Positions 51,021-60,029 of a stretch of 63,170 nucleotides of DNA are shown piece after piece. The position numbers and the translations under genes are program-made. Origin of the DNA: Campylobacteraceae bacterium (GTDB taxonomy: Bacteria; Campylobacterota; Campylobacteria; Campylobacterales; Sulfurovaceae); contig JALVTE010000120.1 of NCBI GenBank assembly GCA_027024155.1, positions 1 through 63,170 on the forward strand, read 5' to 3'. Below the pieces are notes generated by a model, which had not been told where the DNA came from, made no database searches, and worked only from the letters and a program-made list of their open reading frames with translations. Within the stretch, counting starts at the first letter, position 1. Every line of letters begins with the position of its first letter.

Positions 51021-52886
51021 ATGTTAGGTTTCGATTCGTTTTCTTTTGTTTTTTTATTGCTTATATTTTTAGGTGTTTTTCCTAATATATTTTATACTTT
51101 TGGTTATTTACCTCATATAAAAAGAAAGACTTACTTTTTAGTGAACTATTTTGCTTTTATTATTTCGATGGTTGGTGTTGTATTGGCAAAAGAGATATTA
51201 GTATTTCTCTTTTTTTGGGAGTTGATGAGTCTTACTTCTTGGCAACTTATACTGACAGAAAATACGAAAGAGAGTAGAGAAGCTGGAAGATTTTATTTTT
51301 TAATGACTCATTTGGGTTTTGTGTTTGTATTATTATTCTTTTTGATACTTTCGCCAAACGATTTATCTGCTAACTTTAGTGTATTAAAACTTTATGCCCA
51401 GAGCTTTAAGTATCCAACACTTCTATTCTTTTTAATCGCTATTGGATTTTTAAGCAAAGCGGGTGTTGTGCCATTGCATGTTTGGTTGCCTTATGCACAC
51501 CCTGCTGCTCCTAGCCCTGTATCGGCACTTATGAGTGGGGTTATGTTAAAAGTCGCAATTTATGCCTTTTTGCGTTTTATGTTTATTCTGCCAGCTTGGC
51601 AGTTAGAGTGGGGTATTATTGTGCTCTTCTTGGGTGCAATTACAAGTTTGGTTGGTGTACTCTATGCACTTAGCGAGCATGATATTAAAGCCCTTTTGGC
51701 AAACCATTCGGTAGAGAATATTGGTATTATTTTAATTGCGATTGGTTTAGGTATGATATTTCATACTTTAAAGTTAGATACTTTAAGTGCATTTAGCTTT
51801 ATTGCTGGGGTTTATCACTCCTTTAACCATATGAGCTTTAAGTCACTTCTGTTTATGACAGCAGGAAGTGTGCTGCATCAAACTCATACAAAAAATATGG
51901 AAAAGTATGGCGGTTTAATTAAGCTAATGCCTATTACTGCTTTTTTGTTTTTGTTGGCAGCTATATCTATTACAGCTTTGCCACCTACAAATGGCTTTTT
52001 GAGCGAGTGGATGATTTTTCAAAGTATGTTGAGTACAGCTGGAATTTCGGATATTTCGCTTAAACTATCTTTTGGCTTTACTATTTTTGCTTTAGCTTTA
52101 ACTGGAGGCTTAGCGATTGCCTGTTTTGTTAAGGCGTTTGGTATTACATTTTTAGGTCTTGCACGAAGTGAAAATGCAAAGCATGCAAAAGAGGTAAATA
52201 TACTTATGCTTTTAGGGCAAATGTTTATGGGTGCGGTTGTAGTTGGCTTAATGCTCTTTATGCCATCTATTATAAAGGCAATAAATGCATCTATGCCAAT
52301 AAGTAATATTTACGATAAAATGTTTCCAAATTACTTTGTAATGCACTCTGTTGCTAATAACTTTGGTGCGGTATCTCCACTTTTCTTAACGGTTGCATTA
52401 GTTGGTATTACATTAATGGTTTGGCTTGCTTATAAAATAATGAATCCAAAAGTAAGAGAGTATCACACTTGGGCTTGCGGTTATGACACAAATGCAAAAC
52501 TGCAATACTCTACAACAGGTTTTGCCGGACCAATAAGACGCTTTTTTACCTGGCTTTATAAACCAGATGTACATGAACATAAAGAGATACTCTATGGACA
52601 CAAAACTAAATTTAAATCGAGCCTATACGAAGTACATGTAAAACCACTTTTCGAGCGTAGCTTATATGACAGTGTAAAAAAAGCTATTAATTATATAACT
52701 TATATAGTCTATCGAGCATCGCACTTTGAAAAAGAGAGGTACTCGGCACTTATTTTTAACTTGTTAATATTTATTTTATTTAGTATGCGTGTATTTTATC
52801 ACGAAGTTGGCTGGGGTAGTATTCTTTTAGAGGGTGTAGTTGTATCTATATTTGTTAGCATAATTTTATTTGGAGAGCGAAAATGA
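51021..52886 (+). CDS. Ehr/hydrogenase-4 complex membrane subunit, HyfB-like antiporter
   Basis: A 621-residue NuoL/MrpA-type proton- or ion-translocating subunit with about 16 membrane helices. Conserved elements: FFWELMSLTSWQLI with the TM5 glutamate, KAGVVPLHVWLPYAHPAAPSPVSALMSG with the TM7 lysine and histidine, and GVYHSFNHMSFKSLLFM. The C-terminal CGYDTNAKLQYSTTGF is characteristic of HyfB rather than NuoL. First gene of a six-gene operon, coupled by a four-base overlap to the next. Confidence 0.88.
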   Translation: MLGFDSFSFVFLLLIFLGVFPNIFYTFGYLPHIKRKTYFLVNYFAFIISMVGVVLAKEILVFLFFWELMSLTSWQLILTENTKESREAGRFYFLMTHLGFVFVLLFFLILSPNDLSANFSVLKLYAQSFKYPTLLFFLIAIGFLSKAGVVPLHVWLPYAHPAAPSPVSALMSGVMLKVAIYAFLRFMFILPAWQLEWGIIVLFLGAITSLVGVLYALSEHDIKALLANHSVENIGIILIAIGLGMIFHTLKLDTLSAFSFIAGVYHSFNHMSFKSLLFMTAGSVLHQTHTKNMEKYGGLIKLMPITAFLFLLAAISITALPPTNGFLSEWMIFQSMLSTAGISDISLKLSFGFTIFALALTGGLAIACFVKAFGITFLGLARSENAKHAKEVNILMLLGQMFMGAVVVGLMLFMPSIIKAINASMPISNIYDKMFPNYFVMHSVANNFGAVSPLFLTVALVGITLMVWLAYKIMNPKVREYHTWACGYDTNAKLQYSTTGFAGPIRRFFTWLYKPDVHEHKEILYGHKTKFKSSLYEVHVKPLFERSLYDSVKKAINYITYIVYRASHFEKERYSALIFNLLIFILFSMRVFYHEVGWGSILLEGVVVSIFVSIILFGERK

Positions 52887-53809
52887 TTTACTATATAATT
52901 CAAGTTTTGAGCATATTTTTAATAGCTCCATTTTTAGTTGGCGTAATTAAAAGTATAAAAATGTTTATGCTTTATAAAAGACCAATGTCTCCATTCCAGC
53001 CATATTTTGATTTTTATAAATTGCTTTATAAAGAGGTTATCTACTCTAAAGAGAGTAGTGCAGTCTCTAAAATTGCACCAATTTTAATAATTTCGCCGTT
53101 AATTTTGGTTGTTTTTTTACTTCCGCCAATATTTAGTGGCAGTTTTTATGTATCGTTTATGGATGCATTTACGATAACTGGGCTTATTAGCCTTTCGACC
53201 TTTTTCTTAATGCTCTTAGGATTAGATAGTGCCAGTGCATTTGGAGGACTTGGCAGTAGTAGAGAAGCATTTATATCGGCACTTGTTGAGCCTGCAATGA
53301 TTTTAACAATATTTAGTGTTTCGCTTATGGCAAATTCGATTGGTATCTCTAAAGCAGCTCTTAATTTGGCAAGCTCTTTTCCGGCTACCCATGCAGCAAG
53401 TTTTGTATTGGCAGCAATTAGCTTTTTTATTTTGTTAGTTGCAGAGAATGGGAGAATTCCTGTAGATAACCCAGAGACTCACTTAGAACTTACAATGGTG
53501 CACGAAGCGATGATACTCGATGTAAGTGGAGCAGATTTGGCACTTGTAGAGTTGGCAAGTGGTATTAAATATGCAATATTTGCAACTCTGTTTGTAACGC
53601 TGTTTATTCCTTTTGGTACGGAGTTACCGTTTGCTTTAGCTTTTTTAGTATTTATAGCAAAGCTACTTATTGTATCGGTAGTTATAGCATTACTTGAGGT
53701 AAATACTGCAAAACTTCGACTCTTTAAAGTACCAAATCTGTTGGGTATATCTATTATTTTTGGCTTTTTGAGTTTGATAACTTTCTACATTTTAGGAGGT
53801 GTAGCATGA
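52883..53809 (+). CDS. Ehr/hydrogenase-4 complex subunit, HyfC/NuoH-like
   Basis: A 308-residue membrane subunit with eight or so helices, homologous to NuoH, which links the redox module to the ion-pumping arm. The motif AENGRIPVDNPETHLELTMVHEA is highly conserved in HyfC/HycD/NuoH and contains the acidic residues of the quinone-side channel. Overlaps both neighbours by four bases. Confidence 0.92.
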   Translation: MIYYIIQVLSIFLIAPFLVGVIKSIKMFMLYKRPMSPFQPYFDFYKLLYKEVIYSKESSAVSKIAPILIISPLILVVFLLPPIFSGSFYVSFMDAFTITGLISLSTFFLMLLGLDSASAFGGLGSSREAFISALVEPAMILTIFSVSLMANSIGISKAALNLASSFPATHAASFVLAAISFFILLVAENGRIPVDNPETHLELTMVHEAMILDVSGADLALVELASGIKYAIFATLFVTLFIPFGTELPFALAFLVFIAKLLIVSVVIALLEVNTAKLRLFKVPNLLGISIIFGFLSLITFYILGGVA

Positions 53810-54396
53810 TAGATGTTTTAATTGGTTTTTATATAGCTACACTTATTACGGAACTTTTTACCACAAGGCTTTATAGGCTTCTTGGTTGGTATGCATTAAA
53901 TTCTCTCTTTTTGGGGCTTATTGCTATATATATGGGCGCACAAATTGGCGACAATGCTATGATTATTAGTGGTACTATTACTATAATTATTAAATTTATG
54001 CTTATTCCATATGTTTTAAAATATATTGCAACTAAATTCAAGATACCAAGAAATATAAATCCAAATTTAAAAGTGCACTATTCAACAATTATTGTACCTG
54101 TTATTTTGGTTTTTACATACTATTTAGTCAATCCAATCATACATAATATGGCATATAATGCAAACTATGTTGCACTCTCTATTAGTAGTCTCTTTTTGGC
54201 GATGCTTTTAATTATTGAGCATAAAAATATAGCACCAAAAATTGTTGGCTTTTTATCTATAGAGAATGCTCTGTTTCTACTTGCAATTAGTGCTACCAAG
54301 GGTATGCCAATGCTTGTAGAACTTGGTATTTTTGTCGATTTATTAATGCTTATTGTTATTGTAAATATTCTCTTTAAGCACCAAGGAGATTTTTAA
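53806..54396 (+). CDS. Ehr/hydrogenase-4 complex subunit, HyfE-like
   Basis: A 196-residue membrane protein with six or so helices. Its layout and position between HyfC and HyfF match HyfE, a fusion of NuoK-like and additional helices. The NuoK-like glutamate region may be in IENALFLLAIS near residue 150. Overlaps both neighbours by 1-4 bases. Confidence 0.82.
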   Translation: MIDVLIGFYIATLITELFTTRLYRLLGWYALNSLFLGLIAIYMGAQIGDNAMIISGTITIIIKFMLIPYVLKYIATKFKIPRNINPNLKVHYSTIIVPVILVFTYYLVNPIIHNMAYNANYVALSISSLFLAMLLIIEHKNIAPKIVGFLSIENALFLLAISATKGMPMLVELGIFVDLLMLIVIVNILFKHQGDF

Positions 54397-55778
54397 TGCT
54401 TATTATTTTTATACCATCAATTTTACTTGTTATACTTAGCTTCTTTAAAATAAATAGAACTCTTATGGCTGGTGTTTCATCTTTGATAATTGTGCCGGCT
54501 ATCTATATATTTTTGCACCCATTTGTAAATGAGTATTTTTTAGTAGATAAATTAAACTCTTTTGTACTTTTAATCTCTTCTATTGTGGGTGTCGGGGTTA
54601 GTTTAAGTATGATTTCTCTACCCGATAGATTAAACTTAAATGAAGAGGCTATAAAAAGATTTTACCGCTTCTTTGGAATATTTTGGTTTGGGCTTATTAT
54701 CTCTATTTTGGCAAACAATATGGGGATATTTTGGATAGGTTTAGAGTTCGCAACACTCTCGACAGTTTATATGATAAAGGTAAAAGATTCACTCACAGCA
54801 CACAAAGAGGCGTGGAAATATTTAACAGTTGGAGCAATCGCAATTTCGCTTGTACTCTTTGGTATTATACTTATGTATGCCTCTGCCAAAGGTGTGTTGG
54901 GTGAAAATGCTATGAATTTTTATGCTTTGGCAAACAGTGCCGATAAAATAAATAGTTTCCTTTTTGAAATCGGTTTTACTATATCTGTAACAGGTTTTTT
55001 TATAAAGATGGGCTTTTTCCCTATGAACCTATGGTTAGCAGATATTGAGCGAGCAAGTATCTACCCAGTAGCTGCACTCTTTAGCGGAATTTTAGAGAGT
55101 GCAATAATGTTAGGCTTCTTTAGATTAAGTAAAATAGAGATGCTAGTAAATGCTTCGCACTTAGTTACCTTTAGTTATATTTATGCAATCTTTACACTAT
55201 TTATGGTAAGCTTTTTAATATATAGAACTAAAGATTTTGTAACAACTTTTGCCCTCTCTGGAATTGAACATATGGTTTTAATTACTATATTTTGGGTAAG
55301 TGGTGGCTACTTTGCAGCACTTTTACACTTAGCTGCACACGCATTTTTAAAGCCGGCACTATTTTTAAGTTCGAGTATGTTGGAGCAAAAGAGACGATAC
55401 AGTTTTAAGGGTGCACTCAAAGGGTACAAAAACAAATTAGTACCACTTTTAATTAGCCTATTGCTTTTAGGTATTATATCTATACCGCCAAGTCCAATGT
55501 TTTTTAGTGAAATATTTGGTTTTAAAGCAATGTTAGATGTTGCACAAGATTCAGACTACTTTTTAGTAATGATTTTTGCAATATTTATAATTATGATATT
55601 GCTATCCATTATTTTTTACAAATTTATTACGATATATCAAGAGGCTCTTTATGATGGTAAAGATGAACCTAAAAAAGTATATAAGAGTGAAATTGCAATG
55701 TTGCTACTATTTACAATTTCGCTTTTAGCACTCATTTTACCACAAGTATTTGACTACATAGAAGGGATAATCAAATGA
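54396..55778 (+). CDS. Ehr/hydrogenase-4 complex antiporter-like subunit, HyfF-like
   Basis: A 460-residue NuoM/N/HyfF-type subunit with about 14 helices. The TM5 glutamate is in IGLEFATLSTVYMI and the TM7 lysine is in FIKMGFFPMNLWLAD. The usual histidine-rich P-L-H-x-W-L-P motif reads FPMNLWLAD, so part of the canonical channel is altered, as commonly seen in HyfF-like proteins. LAAHAFLKPALFLSS is the TM11/12 lysine region. Four-base overlap with the next gene. Confidence 0.88.
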   Translation: MLIIFIPSILLVILSFFKINRTLMAGVSSLIIVPAIYIFLHPFVNEYFLVDKLNSFVLLISSIVGVGVSLSMISLPDRLNLNEEAIKRFYRFFGIFWFGLIISILANNMGIFWIGLEFATLSTVYMIKVKDSLTAHKEAWKYLTVGAIAISLVLFGIILMYASAKGVLGENAMNFYALANSADKINSFLFEIGFTISVTGFFIKMGFFPMNLWLADIERASIYPVAALFSGILESAIMLGFFRLSKIEMLVNASHLVTFSYIYAIFTLFMVSFLIYRTKDFVTTFALSGIEHMVLITIFWVSGGYFAALLHLAAHAFLKPALFLSSSMLEQKRRYSFKGALKGYKNKLVPLLISLLLLGIISIPPSPMFFSEIFGFKAMLDVAQDSDYFLVMIFAIFIIMILLSIIFYKFITIYQEALYDGKDEPKKVYKSEIAMLLLFTISLLALILPQVFDYIEGIIK

Positions 55779-57139
55779 GACTAATAGCTAGATTTGCCCA
55801 AGAGTTGCAAAATGGTATAGAGATAGTAGATGTTTACGATAAAGAGGTGCAAAAGAGTCTGCTAAGTTTTGAGAGCTTAAAAATAGAAACTCTAACTAAA
55901 AAATATCCATCAGCTATATGGATGGAGCGAAAAATAAATGATGAATTTGGGGTAGAGTTTATCGACTCTTTCGACACACGTCCGCTAATAAAACATGAGC
56001 ATTTTCCAAGTGATATTTATCCACTAAGAAAAGATTTTAATGCGACAGAGATAAACTTTACAGAGTATAAACCCTATGACTACGAAGCGATAGGTGGCGA
56101 TGGGGTTTTCCAAGTAGCAGTTGGTCCGATACATGCAGGTATTATCGAACCGGGGCATTTCCAATTTTCGCAAGCTGGCGAAGAGATTTTGCATTTAGAG
56201 ATACGCCATTTTTATAAATATAGGGCAATCGAGAAGATGTGCGAAGGCAAAGAGCCAATGAATATTAAAAAAATAGTAGAGAGAATTAGCGGAAATGAGA
56301 GTGTGGCATACCAAATAGCTTATGTTGAGATATTAGCACAAGCGAGTAACACAGAGATTCCTAAATCACTAAAGCAAAAATATTCTACTTTATTAGAAGT
56401 AGAGCGAATAATTCACCACTTAACAGATATTGGCTTTATAGCTAACGATGTAGGCTTTGCCCCAGCTTTGGCACTTGGCAGTAAACTGAGCGAAGAGGCA
56501 CGAAGAGTTTTTGCCAAAATTACAGGACACCGTTTTGGTTTTGGAGCTATAAAAGAGGAGATAACTATAGACTTTGGCTCTTTAATAGAGTTTTTAAACT
56601 ACTTAGAAAAAGAGTTAGAGTTTTTTAGAGATTGGATATACGACATACCATCTGTTTGGGATAGATTCGATACAACAGGTAAATTAAGTGTTGAAAAAGC
56701 TATTAAATATGGTGTTGTAGGTGTTGGTGCAAGAGCAAGTGGTGTAAAAGTAGATGCAAGAGATAATGACTTTTACAAAAACTTTGGCTACCAAATGCAG
56801 TTAGGAAAAAAAGGCGAAGTGAGCGATAGGTTTAAATTACGATTTAATGAAATATTTAACTCTATAGAGATGATAAAAAACTTTGAAACTTATGATAACG
56901 AGGGCTTGGAATTTGGAAATTTTAAAGATGGCGAATATAGTGCATTTACAGAGAGCAGTATAGGCGAGTTGTTTATGTATTTAAAAATAGAAAATGGATT
57001 GGTAGATAGATTTTTTGTACGTGACCCATCGTTCATAAATTGGCAAGCATTTCATACGACAATTTATAAAGATATTATCGCAGACTTCCCACTCATAAAC
57101 AAAAGTTTCGATTTAAGCTATGCAGGGAGCGACTTATGA
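55775..57139 (+). CDS. Ehr large subunit (NuoCD/HyfG-like) lacking NiFe ligands
   Basis: A 454-residue fusion of a NuoC-like N-terminal part (IWMERKINDEFG near residue 50) and a NuoD/HyfG-like large subunit (VGPIHAGIIEPGHF near 117, HFYKYRAIEKM near 145). In [NiFe] hydrogenases the metal is held by RxCGxC and DPCxxC. Here these positions read RISGNE (170-175) and DPSFIN (417-422), so C172, C175, C419 and C422 are replaced by Ser, Glu, Ser and Asn. The site cannot bind Ni-Fe, and no C-terminal maturation peptide follows. This matches energy-converting-hydrogenase-related (Ehr) complexes. The electron donor and acceptor are unknown. Confidence 0.9.
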   Translation: MRLIARFAQELQNGIEIVDVYDKEVQKSLLSFESLKIETLTKKYPSAIWMERKINDEFGVEFIDSFDTRPLIKHEHFPSDIYPLRKDFNATEINFTEYKPYDYEAIGGDGVFQVAVGPIHAGIIEPGHFQFSQAGEEILHLEIRHFYKYRAIEKMCEGKEPMNIKKIVERISGNESVAYQIAYVEILAQASNTEIPKSLKQKYSTLLEVERIIHHLTDIGFIANDVGFAPALALGSKLSEEARRVFAKITGHRFGFGAIKEEITIDFGSLIEFLNYLEKELEFFRDWIYDIPSVWDRFDTTGKLSVEKAIKYGVVGVGARASGVKVDARDNDFYKNFGYQMQLGKKGEVSDRFKLRFNEIFNSIEMIKNFETYDNEGLEFGNFKDGEYSAFTESSIGELFMYLKIENGLVDRFFVRDPSFINWQAFHTTIYKDIIADFPLINKSFDLSYAGSDL

Positions 57140-57141
57140 GA

Positions 57142-57411
57142 ATACATGTTCTAACCTTGTATTCTCGATTTTGATGGACTATAAAGCTATTAGATTTAGT
57201 GATTTAAAATCGAAGTCCTACCCATAGGTAAGTCGAGTTTTTAAATTACTAAAGATGACAGTTTTATAGTCCACCAAAATGGCAAGCAAGAAGTCGCCGT
57301 ATATTAAATAAAATAGCTTTGAATTGCAAAAAGCAGTCCTACAGCTATTTTATTCAATCTACAACGACTTCTTGCTAGTCAAAATAGAAAATATAAGGTT
57401 AGAACATGTAT
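57142..57411. repeat. Cloverleaf-type palindromic element D, between the Ehr large and small subunit genes (270 bp)
   Basis: Terminal arms of 33 bases at 57142-57174 and 57379-57411 (ATACATGTTCTAACCTT...) pair with three mismatches. They enclose hairpin 57175-57273 (TGGACTATAAA / TTTATAGTCCA; TTTAGTGATTTAAAA / TTTTAAATTACTAAA; tip CCTA-CCCA-TAGG) and hairpin 57285-57376 (AGCAAGAAGTCG / CGACTTCTTGCT; AAATAGCT / AGCTATTT). Sequence differs from copies A-C, but arm length, hairpin sizes and total size match. The right arm includes the AAGGTT and ATG of the small-subunit gene. The trinucleotide AGA flanks both ends. Confidence 0.8.
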
Positions 57412-57888
57412 AGATATTGGAAAAAGAGATTTGCAACAACATTAGAGCAAGATGAAGAGTTAGAAGCAATTAAAAAAGAGTTAAAAAAGCTAGTCAAAAA
57501 AAAGTTTGGCGGAAGTTTAGCTATAAGAATGGTAGATAGCGGCAGTTGCAACGCTTGTGAAGCAGAATGCAACGCACTCTCGAATCCATACTACAATTTA
57601 GAAGAGTTAGGAATCCATTTTGTAGCCAGCCCAAGACATGCTGATGTTATGTTTCTAAGTGGTGTAATGACCTTTAATATGTACCACCACGCCATAGATT
57701 GCTACAATCAAATACCATCACCAAAATGGGTAATAGCCATAGGCGATTGCGTAAAAGATTTAGGAGTATTTGAAAAAACTTATGCCATTAAAGGCAATAG
57801 TATAGAGGTAACTCATTATATTATAAACTGCCCACCAAGCCCTAAAGATATTATTTATGGCTTGCTGAAGTTCGCTAAGAAAGTTTAA
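57406..57888 (+). CDS. Ehr small subunit (NuoB/HyfI-like)
   Basis: A 160-residue NuoB-type protein. The four ligands of the proximal [4Fe-4S] cluster are present: C48 and C51 (SGSCNACEAE), C115 (IGDC) and C142 (NCPPSP); C55 is extra. The N-terminal ~40 residues are charged and helical. The ATG and ribosome-binding AAGG lie inside the right arm of element D, which separates it from the large-subunit gene, so translation may depend on that structure. No HyfA or HyfH ferredoxin gene follows; the operon ends here. Confidence 0.9.
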   Translation: MYRYWKKRFATTLEQDEELEAIKKELKKLVKKKFGGSLAIRMVDSGSCNACEAECNALSNPYYNLEELGIHFVASPRHADVMFLSGVMTFNMYHHAIDCYNQIPSPKWVIAIGDCVKDLGVFEKTYAIKGNSIEVTHYIINCPPSPKDIIYGLLKFAKKV

Positions 57889-57914: not shown

Positions 57915-60029
57915 CTAACTTTTGTTAGACTCTGCTTCATCATTTTTAAACTTATTAAATATAGTAGTACTTAATTCATTTTTTATCTCTTTCATATTAT
58001 TATAAACTTTTTTTAACTCATTTTCATTTAGTCTATCTTCATCAATTATAGCAATTCTTATATTATTTATTTTTGTGTCATTATCACCTATAGTGTCATA
58101 TTGAATATCTATATCAATAGTGTATTTAATTTTTTTATCTATATCATAATCACTGACAAAAGTAAATTTGTACAGTTTATAAGACCTATATCGTTCTCTT
58201 ATTGTATTATATTTTATACATTTTATTTTTTCTTCCATATTTAATAAAGATGGCATATTGAAAATTGATATTATTGAATCTTCTGAATGGAAAAATTCAA
58301 TTAACTTTGTATAAATACCTTCAATTTTATGGTCAATATCTATATTACTGTTATCAAATACATATAAAGATTTTTCATGATTTTTACTATTATTTGTTCT
58401 TTCTTCTTTGTTATTATAGTCTATTTCTTCATTATTGCTTTGTTTATTATTTGACTTGCTAACTTTAGAATAAATATCTTTTGTAAAGTCTTTAATTGAT
58501 TTTGGAAGTATCTTAGATAAAATACTATTTATTGGTTTTGAAAATATCATATATAAACCAAGTAATAAGAAAAATATTAATAAATATTTTGAATAAGGTT
58601 CTAACTCAGATAATTTATCCCACATCTGTGAAAATGAATTAATATTTTTATCTGTAACTATTGGTGTTAATAAAGCTATCTCAACAGTAACAATAGTTAA
58701 TAAATATACACCTTTATTTAGTGATGCACTATTATCTTCTAATGTTTGTTTAAGCATAGTCTCTATTTTATCACTATTTTTTTGAATAGCTTCAAACATT
58801 TTTTGTGTGTATTGCTCATCTTTTCTTTTTAATACTTCGAGCATCTCTTCTTTTTGCATTTCACTATTTTCTACAGCTAACTGATTACTTATTTCATTAT
58901 TTTTACGCAGTTCAGCTATTTCATAGTGTATATTTTTGGTATTTTCTTCTTCTATTAATTTTTCGATACTATAGAAAAAGTTAGATATTGTTTCTATCCT
59001 TCGATTATATTGTTCTATTGCTTGGGTTAGTGTCTTATGCTTCTTAGGCAGATAAACTTTTTGCAATCCAACAAATAAGCTATTTAAGTATTTTAGATTT
59101 GGTAATTTTTCATACATCATTCCATGATATGATTCTAATCTCATCATTGACGATTTATTTATAATTGATGGAAAGTTATAATTAATACCATCTTCAAAAA
59201 TATCTGTTCTAATAATCCCTATTTCAGTTAAATTTTTTAAACAGTAGTCTAATCCTCTCCTATAATGTTCTAATGAAAAAGTATTAGCTACTCTAATAAA
59301 ATGTTCTATACTAGCAGATAAATAACTTTTTTTATTTCTTATACGATATTTATCTCTTTTGGATAAGGGTTGTAGATTTTTTTTATTAATTTTAACTAAA
59401 ATGATTGAATAAAGAATATTGTATAAAGTAAATTTTTTGTTTATATTTTTATAAGCATTAGAAGTCGGTTGATGAATTTTAAAAAAAACTGATGGTGCAA
59501 TATAAATATTATATAAAACATCCAATAATAGCTCTAATTGAAAGTAATTTAAAATGCCCTTGTATCCTTTAAAAAAAACTTTGTTTATTTCATTTTTTGT
59601 ATCATTTTTTCTTTTGTCTAAATAAACAGTATCAAATAGTATCTCAATATGTTTTAAAAAATTATTTTCGGAAGTTTTATCTTCAAATTGCCATAGGTAT
59701 AACCCATGAGAGAAGATAGTAAAAGTTCCTATTTTTTCATGTTTACTGTTTGTTACTGTATTACTAAATTTCTTATTATTAATTTGAAATGAAACATTCC
59801 TTACTGTAGTATCATTATACTGTTCATTACTATTAATTTTATACTCAAAAGGATAATCTTCAAAAGATATTTTTTCAATAATCTCTTTGCTTCTTAGCAA
59901 AATAGGATGTTCAATATAGTGTGTCTTGTTTATTTCACTAAATATGTTTAAGGGTGCATCCCAATAATTATCAAAACCAAAAAAATCTTTATTTAATGGT
60001 AGCCAAAGAGCAAATACATTAGATTCCAT
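57915..60029 (-). CDS. Unrecognised 704-residue membrane/coiled-coil protein
   Basis: Not assigned to a family. The N-terminal ~400 residues are soluble and start with a conserved-looking FALWLPLNKDFFGF; residues ~355-445 are a charged coiled coil; two membrane helices lie at ~440-465 and ~488-508; a polar Asn/Ser-rich linker (about 535-570) precedes a C-terminal domain of ~130 residues. Base composition is more AT-rich than most neighbours, with long A/T runs and very few GC-ending codons, and it stands alone between the Ehr operon and the PiT gene, so horizontal acquisition is possible. A defence or stress role would be speculation. Confidence 0.6.
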   Translation of the reverse strand: MESNVFALWLPLNKDFFGFDNYWDAPLNIFSEINKTHYIEHPILLRSKEIIEKISFEDYPFEYKINSNEQYNDTTVRNVSFQINNKKFSNTVTNSKHEKIGTFTIFSHGLYLWQFEDKTSENNFLKHIEILFDTVYLDKRKNDTKNEINKVFFKGYKGILNYFQLELLLDVLYNIYIAPSVFFKIHQPTSNAYKNINKKFTLYNILYSIILVKINKKNLQPLSKRDKYRIRNKKSYLSASIEHFIRVANTFSLEHYRRGLDYCLKNLTEIGIIRTDIFEDGINYNFPSIINKSSMMRLESYHGMMYEKLPNLKYLNSLFVGLQKVYLPKKHKTLTQAIEQYNRRIETISNFFYSIEKLIEEENTKNIHYEIAELRKNNEISNQLAVENSEMQKEEMLEVLKRKDEQYTQKMFEAIQKNSDKIETMLKQTLEDNSASLNKGVYLLTIVTVEIALLTPIVTDKNINSFSQMWDKLSELEPYSKYLLIFFLLLGLYMIFSKPINSILSKILPKSIKDFTKDIYSKVSKSNNKQSNNEEIDYNNKEERTNNSKNHEKSLYVFDNSNIDIDHKIEGIYTKLIEFFHSEDSIISIFNMPSLLNMEEKIKCIKYNTIRERYRSYKLYKFTFVSDYDIDKKIKYTIDIDIQYDTIGDNDTKINNIRIAIIDEDRLNENELKKVYNNMKEIKNELSTTIFNKFKNDEAESNKS

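Follow-up and report, generated by a model that had tools for sequence, protein, structure and literature searches.

A Campylobacterota operon that very probably encodes an Ehr complex and not a hydrogenase

The operon and its large subunit

The window analysed here, a 63,170 nt stretch of contig JALVTE010000120.1 (C120), comes from a Campylobacterota metagenome-assembled genome (MAG; 2.15 Mb, 97% complete), the nearest named relatives of which are vent-type MAGs labelled as Nitratifractor sp. and Campylobacteraceae. Positions 51,021 to 57,888 are occupied by six intact, tightly packed open reading frames (ORFs) on the forward strand (Table 1), matching, in order, the Pfam and NCBIfam families Proton_antipo_M/HyfB, NADHdh, HyfE-like, Proton_antipo_M/HyfF, Complex1_30kDa with 49kDa, and Oxidored_q6. 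This is the ehrABCDLS composition of HyfB-, C-, E-, F-, G- and I-like genes in that order, and because of this gene content and the lost motifs described below we assign the operon to the energy-converting hydrogenase-related (Ehr) family of the literature; it very probably encodes an Ehr complex, not a hydrogenase. An earlier note on the window had listed these six gene types without the ferredoxin subunits HyfA and HyfH, with which the ORFs and domain matches agree. HyfD is missing from the operon as well, and no ferredoxin gene was found in the orthologous operons examined.

Ehr complexes are kin of the group 4 hydrogenases and of complex I that lack the Ni-Fe ligands and whose function has not been established (PMC6349859, PMC10284858, PMC6728331, PMC4378227). 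Three papers describe ehrABCDLS in Geobacter sulfurreducens, as GSU0739-45, and in Methylacidiphilum (PMC6688271, PMC6728331, PMC7894505, citing Coppi 2005 and Marreiros 2013), and the Geobacter subunits are reported to be more abundant on formate than under hydrogen-containing conditions (PMC7894505).

Table 1. Features of the ehr operon, in window coordinates
Feature	Position	Strand	Basis
EhrA, HyfB/NuoL-like antiporter subunit, 621 aa	51021..52886	+	Pfam/NCBIfam
EhrB, HyfC/NuoH-like membrane subunit, 308 aa	52883..53809	+	Pfam
EhrC, HyfE-like membrane subunit, 196 aa	53806..54396	+	NCBIfam/Pfam match
EhrD, HyfF-like antiporter subunit, 460 aa	54396..55778	+	Pfam/NCBIfam
EhrL, HyfG/NuoCD-like large subunit, 454 aa, without Ni-Fe ligands	55775..57139	+	domain matches, alignment, tree
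RISGNE, EhrL residues 170-175, counterpart of RxCGxC	56282..56299	+	alignment
DPSFIN, EhrL residues 417-422, not the counterpart of DPCxxC	57023..57040	+	alignment
DLSYAG, EhrL residues 446-451, true counterpart of DPCxxC	57110..57127	+	alignment
Y-shaped palindromic insertion, 270 bp, with two long hairpins and a closing outer stem of 33 nt	57142..57411		sequence, RNA fold
EhrS, HyfI/NuoB-like small subunit, 160 aa	57406..57888	+	domain match, alignment

The membrane arm retains its ion-path residues: E67, K146, H266, H270, K274 and E329 in EhrA, and E117, K204 and E372 in EhrD. Such residues are present in 32/32 and 35/35 subunits of the two antiporter types, and most NuoH-type acidic residues are also kept, those in EhrB being E136, D195, E202 and E208. 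Compared with a relative (G002) whose EhrL is 95% identical, all six genes have dN/dS values of 0.025-0.05, which at the sequence level indicates strong purifying selection.

The alignment of EhrL included E. coli HyfG and HycE as well as Nuo and Ni-Fe proteins from other Campylobacterota. Both motifs of the group 4 hydrogenases, RxCGxC and DPCxxC, are lost, the four Ni-Fe cysteines being replaced by S172 and E175 in the former and by S448 and G451 in the latter. The loss of all four had been recognised earlier, as had the identity of RISGNE, but DPSFIN had been mistaken for the counterpart of DPCxxC. That sequence in fact aligns with RAATYANW of HyfG and RAPSFFHT of NuoD, whilst DPCYSC of HyfG and HycE falls on D446-L-S-Y-A-G451, at the extreme C terminus of EhrL. 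The motif changes recur in around 35 other Campylobacterota loci, which, together with the low dN/dS values, argues against an assembly error as the cause of the missing cysteines. HycE and HyfG extend about 35 residues beyond DPCxxC; the absence of such a C-terminal maturation tail fails to separate hydrogenases from Ehr, as cysteine-bearing large subunits of Nautilia profundicola also end just past the motif.

In the former active-site loops of EhrL (residues 117-129, 170-176 and 437-454, picked by the positions of the hydrogenase ligands), 26 of 38 positions are near-invariant among Ehr proteins from several phyla, whereas outside these loops the domain has 45 of 316 (p=5e-12). Near-invariant pocket residues specific to Ehr are A121, I124, S172, F438, N442, K443, S448 and G451. 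Judged by its conservation, the pocket looks to have been rebuilt rather than abandoned. The quinone-site ligands of NuoD, a His and a Tyr (H38 and Y87 in Thermus Nqo4), are each present in 18/20 NuoD sequences, but EhrL has I124 and G173 at these positions, with Ile and Gly both present in 45/45 Ehr sequences. EhrL also keeps a hydrogenase-like loop, EPGHF. Its predicted fold, which alone was used from a model with the pocket loops below a pLDDT of 50, is best matched by HycE of formate hydrogenlyase (E 4e-18, TM-score 0.76) and then by complex I.

Phylogeny, distribution and published 'Hyc' annotations

In a tree built by maximum likelihood from 49 large subunits, with the named Geobacter Ehr sequences left out, all 29 Ehr-type sequences lie on one side of a branch with 100/99 support, separate from the hydrogenases and NuoD. 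The Nuo sequences form a single group (100/99), and the Campylobacterota Ehr sequences a single clade (100/100) on a long stem. Hence the Ehr membership put forward in the earlier note was upheld by a phylogeny in which the large subunit did not fall inside the true hydrogenases, the outcome the note had named as speaking against it. Loci L093-L098, gathered as related, are not Ehr, and those of them that the tree included proved to be NuoD. Plasmids of Burkholderia, Rhizobium, Azospirillum, Variovorax, Methylocalor and Rhodococcus carry the same six-gene operon, again without ferredoxin genes; their EhrL identities are 31-36%.

The known Ehr complexes resemble that of the window in their six-subunit composition, in a large subunit free of Ni-Fe ligands and in forming one clade across phyla. 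Among solved large subunits, the nearest in sequence (E 6e-37) is that of the E. coli hydrogenase 4/formate hydrogenlyase systems (Hyf, Hyc; 7Z0S), with which the membrane modules are shared; however, these have both CxxC motifs and ferredoxin subunits, and Hyf also has HyfD, none of which is present in the window complex. Complex I has homologous core subunits (NuoB, CD, H, L/M/N) and shares the ion-path residues, whereas its NADH and ferredoxin-wire modules, like the quinone-site His and Tyr, are missing from the window complex. The subunit set of MBS/Mbx differs from that of Ehr. This archaeal sulfane sulfur reductase (6U8Y) is likewise a membrane complex of hydrogenase descent without being a hydrogenase, but is more distant from EhrL by sequence (E 5e-6).

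Matches at E<=1e-40 were found in 32 of 397 Campylobacterota genomes, 30 of them in the clade of the window, the other two (G205 and G238) having only a more distant Ehr. ATP-citrate lyase is encoded by 29 of the 30 clade genomes, against 90 of the 367 others (p=1e-15), and on these gene contents the distribution of the clade fits autotrophs that use the reductive tricarboxylic acid (rTCA) cycle. The clade differs from other Ehr in three respects. Its EhrA starts about 75 residues later than HyfB, NuoL and other Ehr in nearly all members, so lacking the expected first two transmembrane helices; a frameshift was rejected as the cause, as nearly all members share the start site. Position 175, that of the second cysteine, is Glu in most members, where other Ehr have Ser or Thr, and the small subunit has an extra cysteine, described below.

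The arrangement of the operon varies. In one genome (L070, G340:C27, 3232-19274) a second, divergent Ehr operon with a full-length HyfB-like gene (663 aa), along with a permease-like gene, is nested between the clade-type ehrL and ehrS, whilst in another (L073, G072) these two are separated by seven other genes. In Sulfurimonas autotrophica (L068, G139) and a further genome (L058, G020) the operon begins with two tandem HyfB-like genes.

The operon occurs in the cultured vent isolates N. profundicola (G050), S. autotrophica (G139), Sulfurovum NBC37-1 (G273) and Nitratiruptor SB155-2 (G047). A complex of vent Campylobacterota has been published under the name 'Hyc' as a H2-evolving group 4 hydrogenase (PMC2628731, PMC4584964, PMC7952632, PMC10092268), and credited with acid resistance through proton reduction (PMC4584964); the same annotation appears in the paper on Nautilia PV-1. 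In N. profundicola and S. autotrophica this corresponds to the operon of the window, with EhrL orthologues 56-72% identical. Comparison of gene number with position places the N. profundicola 'hyc' (GAmH_0718-0723) at the site of the Ehr operon, the ech and coo operons fitting two other matches. The published 'Hyc' of S. autotrophica is very probably the Ehr operon because the only PF00346 matches there are NuoD and Ehr. Unlike what the published label implies, these sequences lack the Ni-Fe ligands, and such vent relatives are, from their sequences, almost certainly not H2-evolving hydrogenases. According to a 2024 paper (PMC11406935), Sulfurovum and Nitratifractor have no group 4 enzymes of the Hyf/Ech type, a view that would agree with the 'Hyc' reports if their operon were Ehr. 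We found no literature placing Ehr in Campylobacterota, whilst the taxonomic profile of Marreiros 2013 may include them. What is new here is the Campylobacterota clade, its identity with the published 'Hyc', the purifying selection on its genes, the residues of the former active site and the traits of the clade, the Ehr family itself being already known.

EhrS, its candidate partners and the adjoining palindrome

The small-subunit [4Fe-4S] ligands named in the earlier note, C48, C51, C115 and C142, proved correct: they align with those of HycG and HyfI, and all four are present in 45/45 Ehr small subunits. The additional C55 (window positions about 57568-57570), one helical turn past the ligand C51, is conserved throughout the Campylobacterota clade (35/35 small subunits), whilst other Ehr and the hydrogenases have I, L, M or V. 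A sister Ehr subtype (L077 gene 10, L078 gene 12, and a Variovorax plasmid, L105 2478-3227) has eight ferredoxin-type cysteines in an extra domain fused to the N terminus of its small subunit, which by analogy points to electron delivery via EhrS. As this eight-Cys wire is absent from the form in the window, direct contact of a soluble donor with the single cluster would be required. The suggestion that a donor docks in this way was, given the single cluster, a fair one, but no donor was found, and a comparison of operon neighbourhoods revealed no conserved partner or donor gene adjoining Ehr. The sole recurring neighbour is a DUF167/YggU gene, which in two Campylobacterota operons (L059 4128-4511; L070 14164-14475) separates the HyfF-like from the HyfG-like gene and on the Variovorax plasmid lies about 4 kb from Ehr (L105 17337-17663); we did not count it as a conserved partner.

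Between ehrL and ehrS the window contains a palindrome that is missing from G002, with a predicted RNA fold of -120 kcal/mol (z -18). Its outer stem takes in both the ehrS start codon (ATG) and the presumed ribosome-binding region, the predicted unpaired probability of positions 57393-57408 being <=0.002. Translation of ehrS may thus be impaired or regulated in this genome, as these signals are almost fully paired in the model. The hairpin loop motif AGKMCTACCCATAGGTAAKTC occurs at 12 places in another genome of the genus (G004; hairpins L144-L147), with few or none in other members, and the reversed pattern, searched as a control, gave 0 matches. From this recurrence we regard the palindrome as a dispersed hairpin element. 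A search of the window against Rfam gave zero matches. Downstream, a 704-aa protein without a Pfam match is encoded on the reverse strand (57915-60029), between ehrS and a phosphate-transporter-like gene; in G002 the latter lies directly 3' of ehrS.

Possible functions and significance

Inferring from the observed gene content, ligand losses and retentions, selection and clade placement, we favour a cation-translocating oxidoreductase with a soluble donor, a single [4Fe-4S] cluster and a metal-free pocket, at a rough probability of 0.45. Ferredoxin, flavodoxin or another soluble carrier of low potential would dock on EhrS at the HyfH/NuoI position, and the cluster would pass electrons in one or the other direction between this carrier and a substrate in the EhrL pocket, the reaction being coupled to the movement of protons (or Na+) through a membrane arm of HyfC-, E-, F- and B-like subunits. 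In rTCA-cycle autotrophs it could proceed in either direction, for instance spending ion-motive force to make reduced ferredoxin. Several points weigh against such an oxidoreductase: the lack of a conserved donor gene adjoining the operon, the confounding of the rTCA association by lineage, the unreliability of the EhrL structure model in the pocket, and the strong predicted stem in which the ehrS start of the window genome sits. More doubtful is a specific form of it, in which the vent Ehr would be a minimal complex-I-type pump with one [4Fe-4S] cluster and neither metal nor quinone site, the repurposed pocket with its invariant Asn, Lys and Ser converting a substrate, the complex supplying ferredoxin to the rTCA cycle, and the shortened HyfB-like subunit and extra cysteine marking a functional subtype.

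It is similarly doubtful that the complex is a minimal complex I, in which a soluble donor would reduce membrane quinone via an N2-like cluster, in a cavity of EhrL, EhrS and the HyfC-like subunit, whilst pumping protons. In favour of this, NuoB and NuoH have homologues in EhrS and the HyfC-like subunit, acidic residues are kept, and complex I structures come next after HycE in the fold comparison; however, I124 and G173 replace the quinone-site His and Tyr, and the EPGHF loop is of the hydrogenase kind. A non-redox cation/proton antiporter or pH-homeostasis device, with EhrL and EhrS merely gating or assembling the membrane arm, would suit the wholly conserved arm and the failure to find a donor, and a role in pH homeostasis has been proposed for the Methylacidiphilum Ehr (PMC6688271). 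We nevertheless consider it unlikely: the invariant cluster ligands and the fused ferredoxin-type domain of the sister subtype would be needless for plain antiport, and make a redox role the likelier. Burial of the ehrS start by the palindrome might suggest a decaying remnant in the window genome, but the low dN/dS, the six intact ORFs and the same motifs in relatives make this highly improbable, and across the clade the Ehr sequences look functional. Least probable of all, to the point of being barely tenable, is a true group 4 hydrogenase, either with its cysteines lost to misassembly or binding Ni-Fe through other residues. Published vent genomes do annotate the complex as H2-evolving 'Hyc', and the host genome has real Ni-Fe hydrogenases elsewhere, yet the changes recur in the other Campylobacterota loci, the tree places the large subunit outside the hydrogenases, and Gly at a ligand position has no side chain with which to bind metal.

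The idea that Ehr is the only complex I of this genome was dropped, as nuoH is present on contig C80 and members of the genus have nuoD; that ehrL is the sole PF00346 match in the host genome is hence likely to reflect an assembly gap.

The chief results are that hydrogenase assignments in the literature can be corrected and that the pocket is described more sharply. Accounts of hydrogen cycling at vents that count 'Hyc' need correction, and the cultured isolates carrying Ehr could provide a route to settling the role of a metal-free member of the family.

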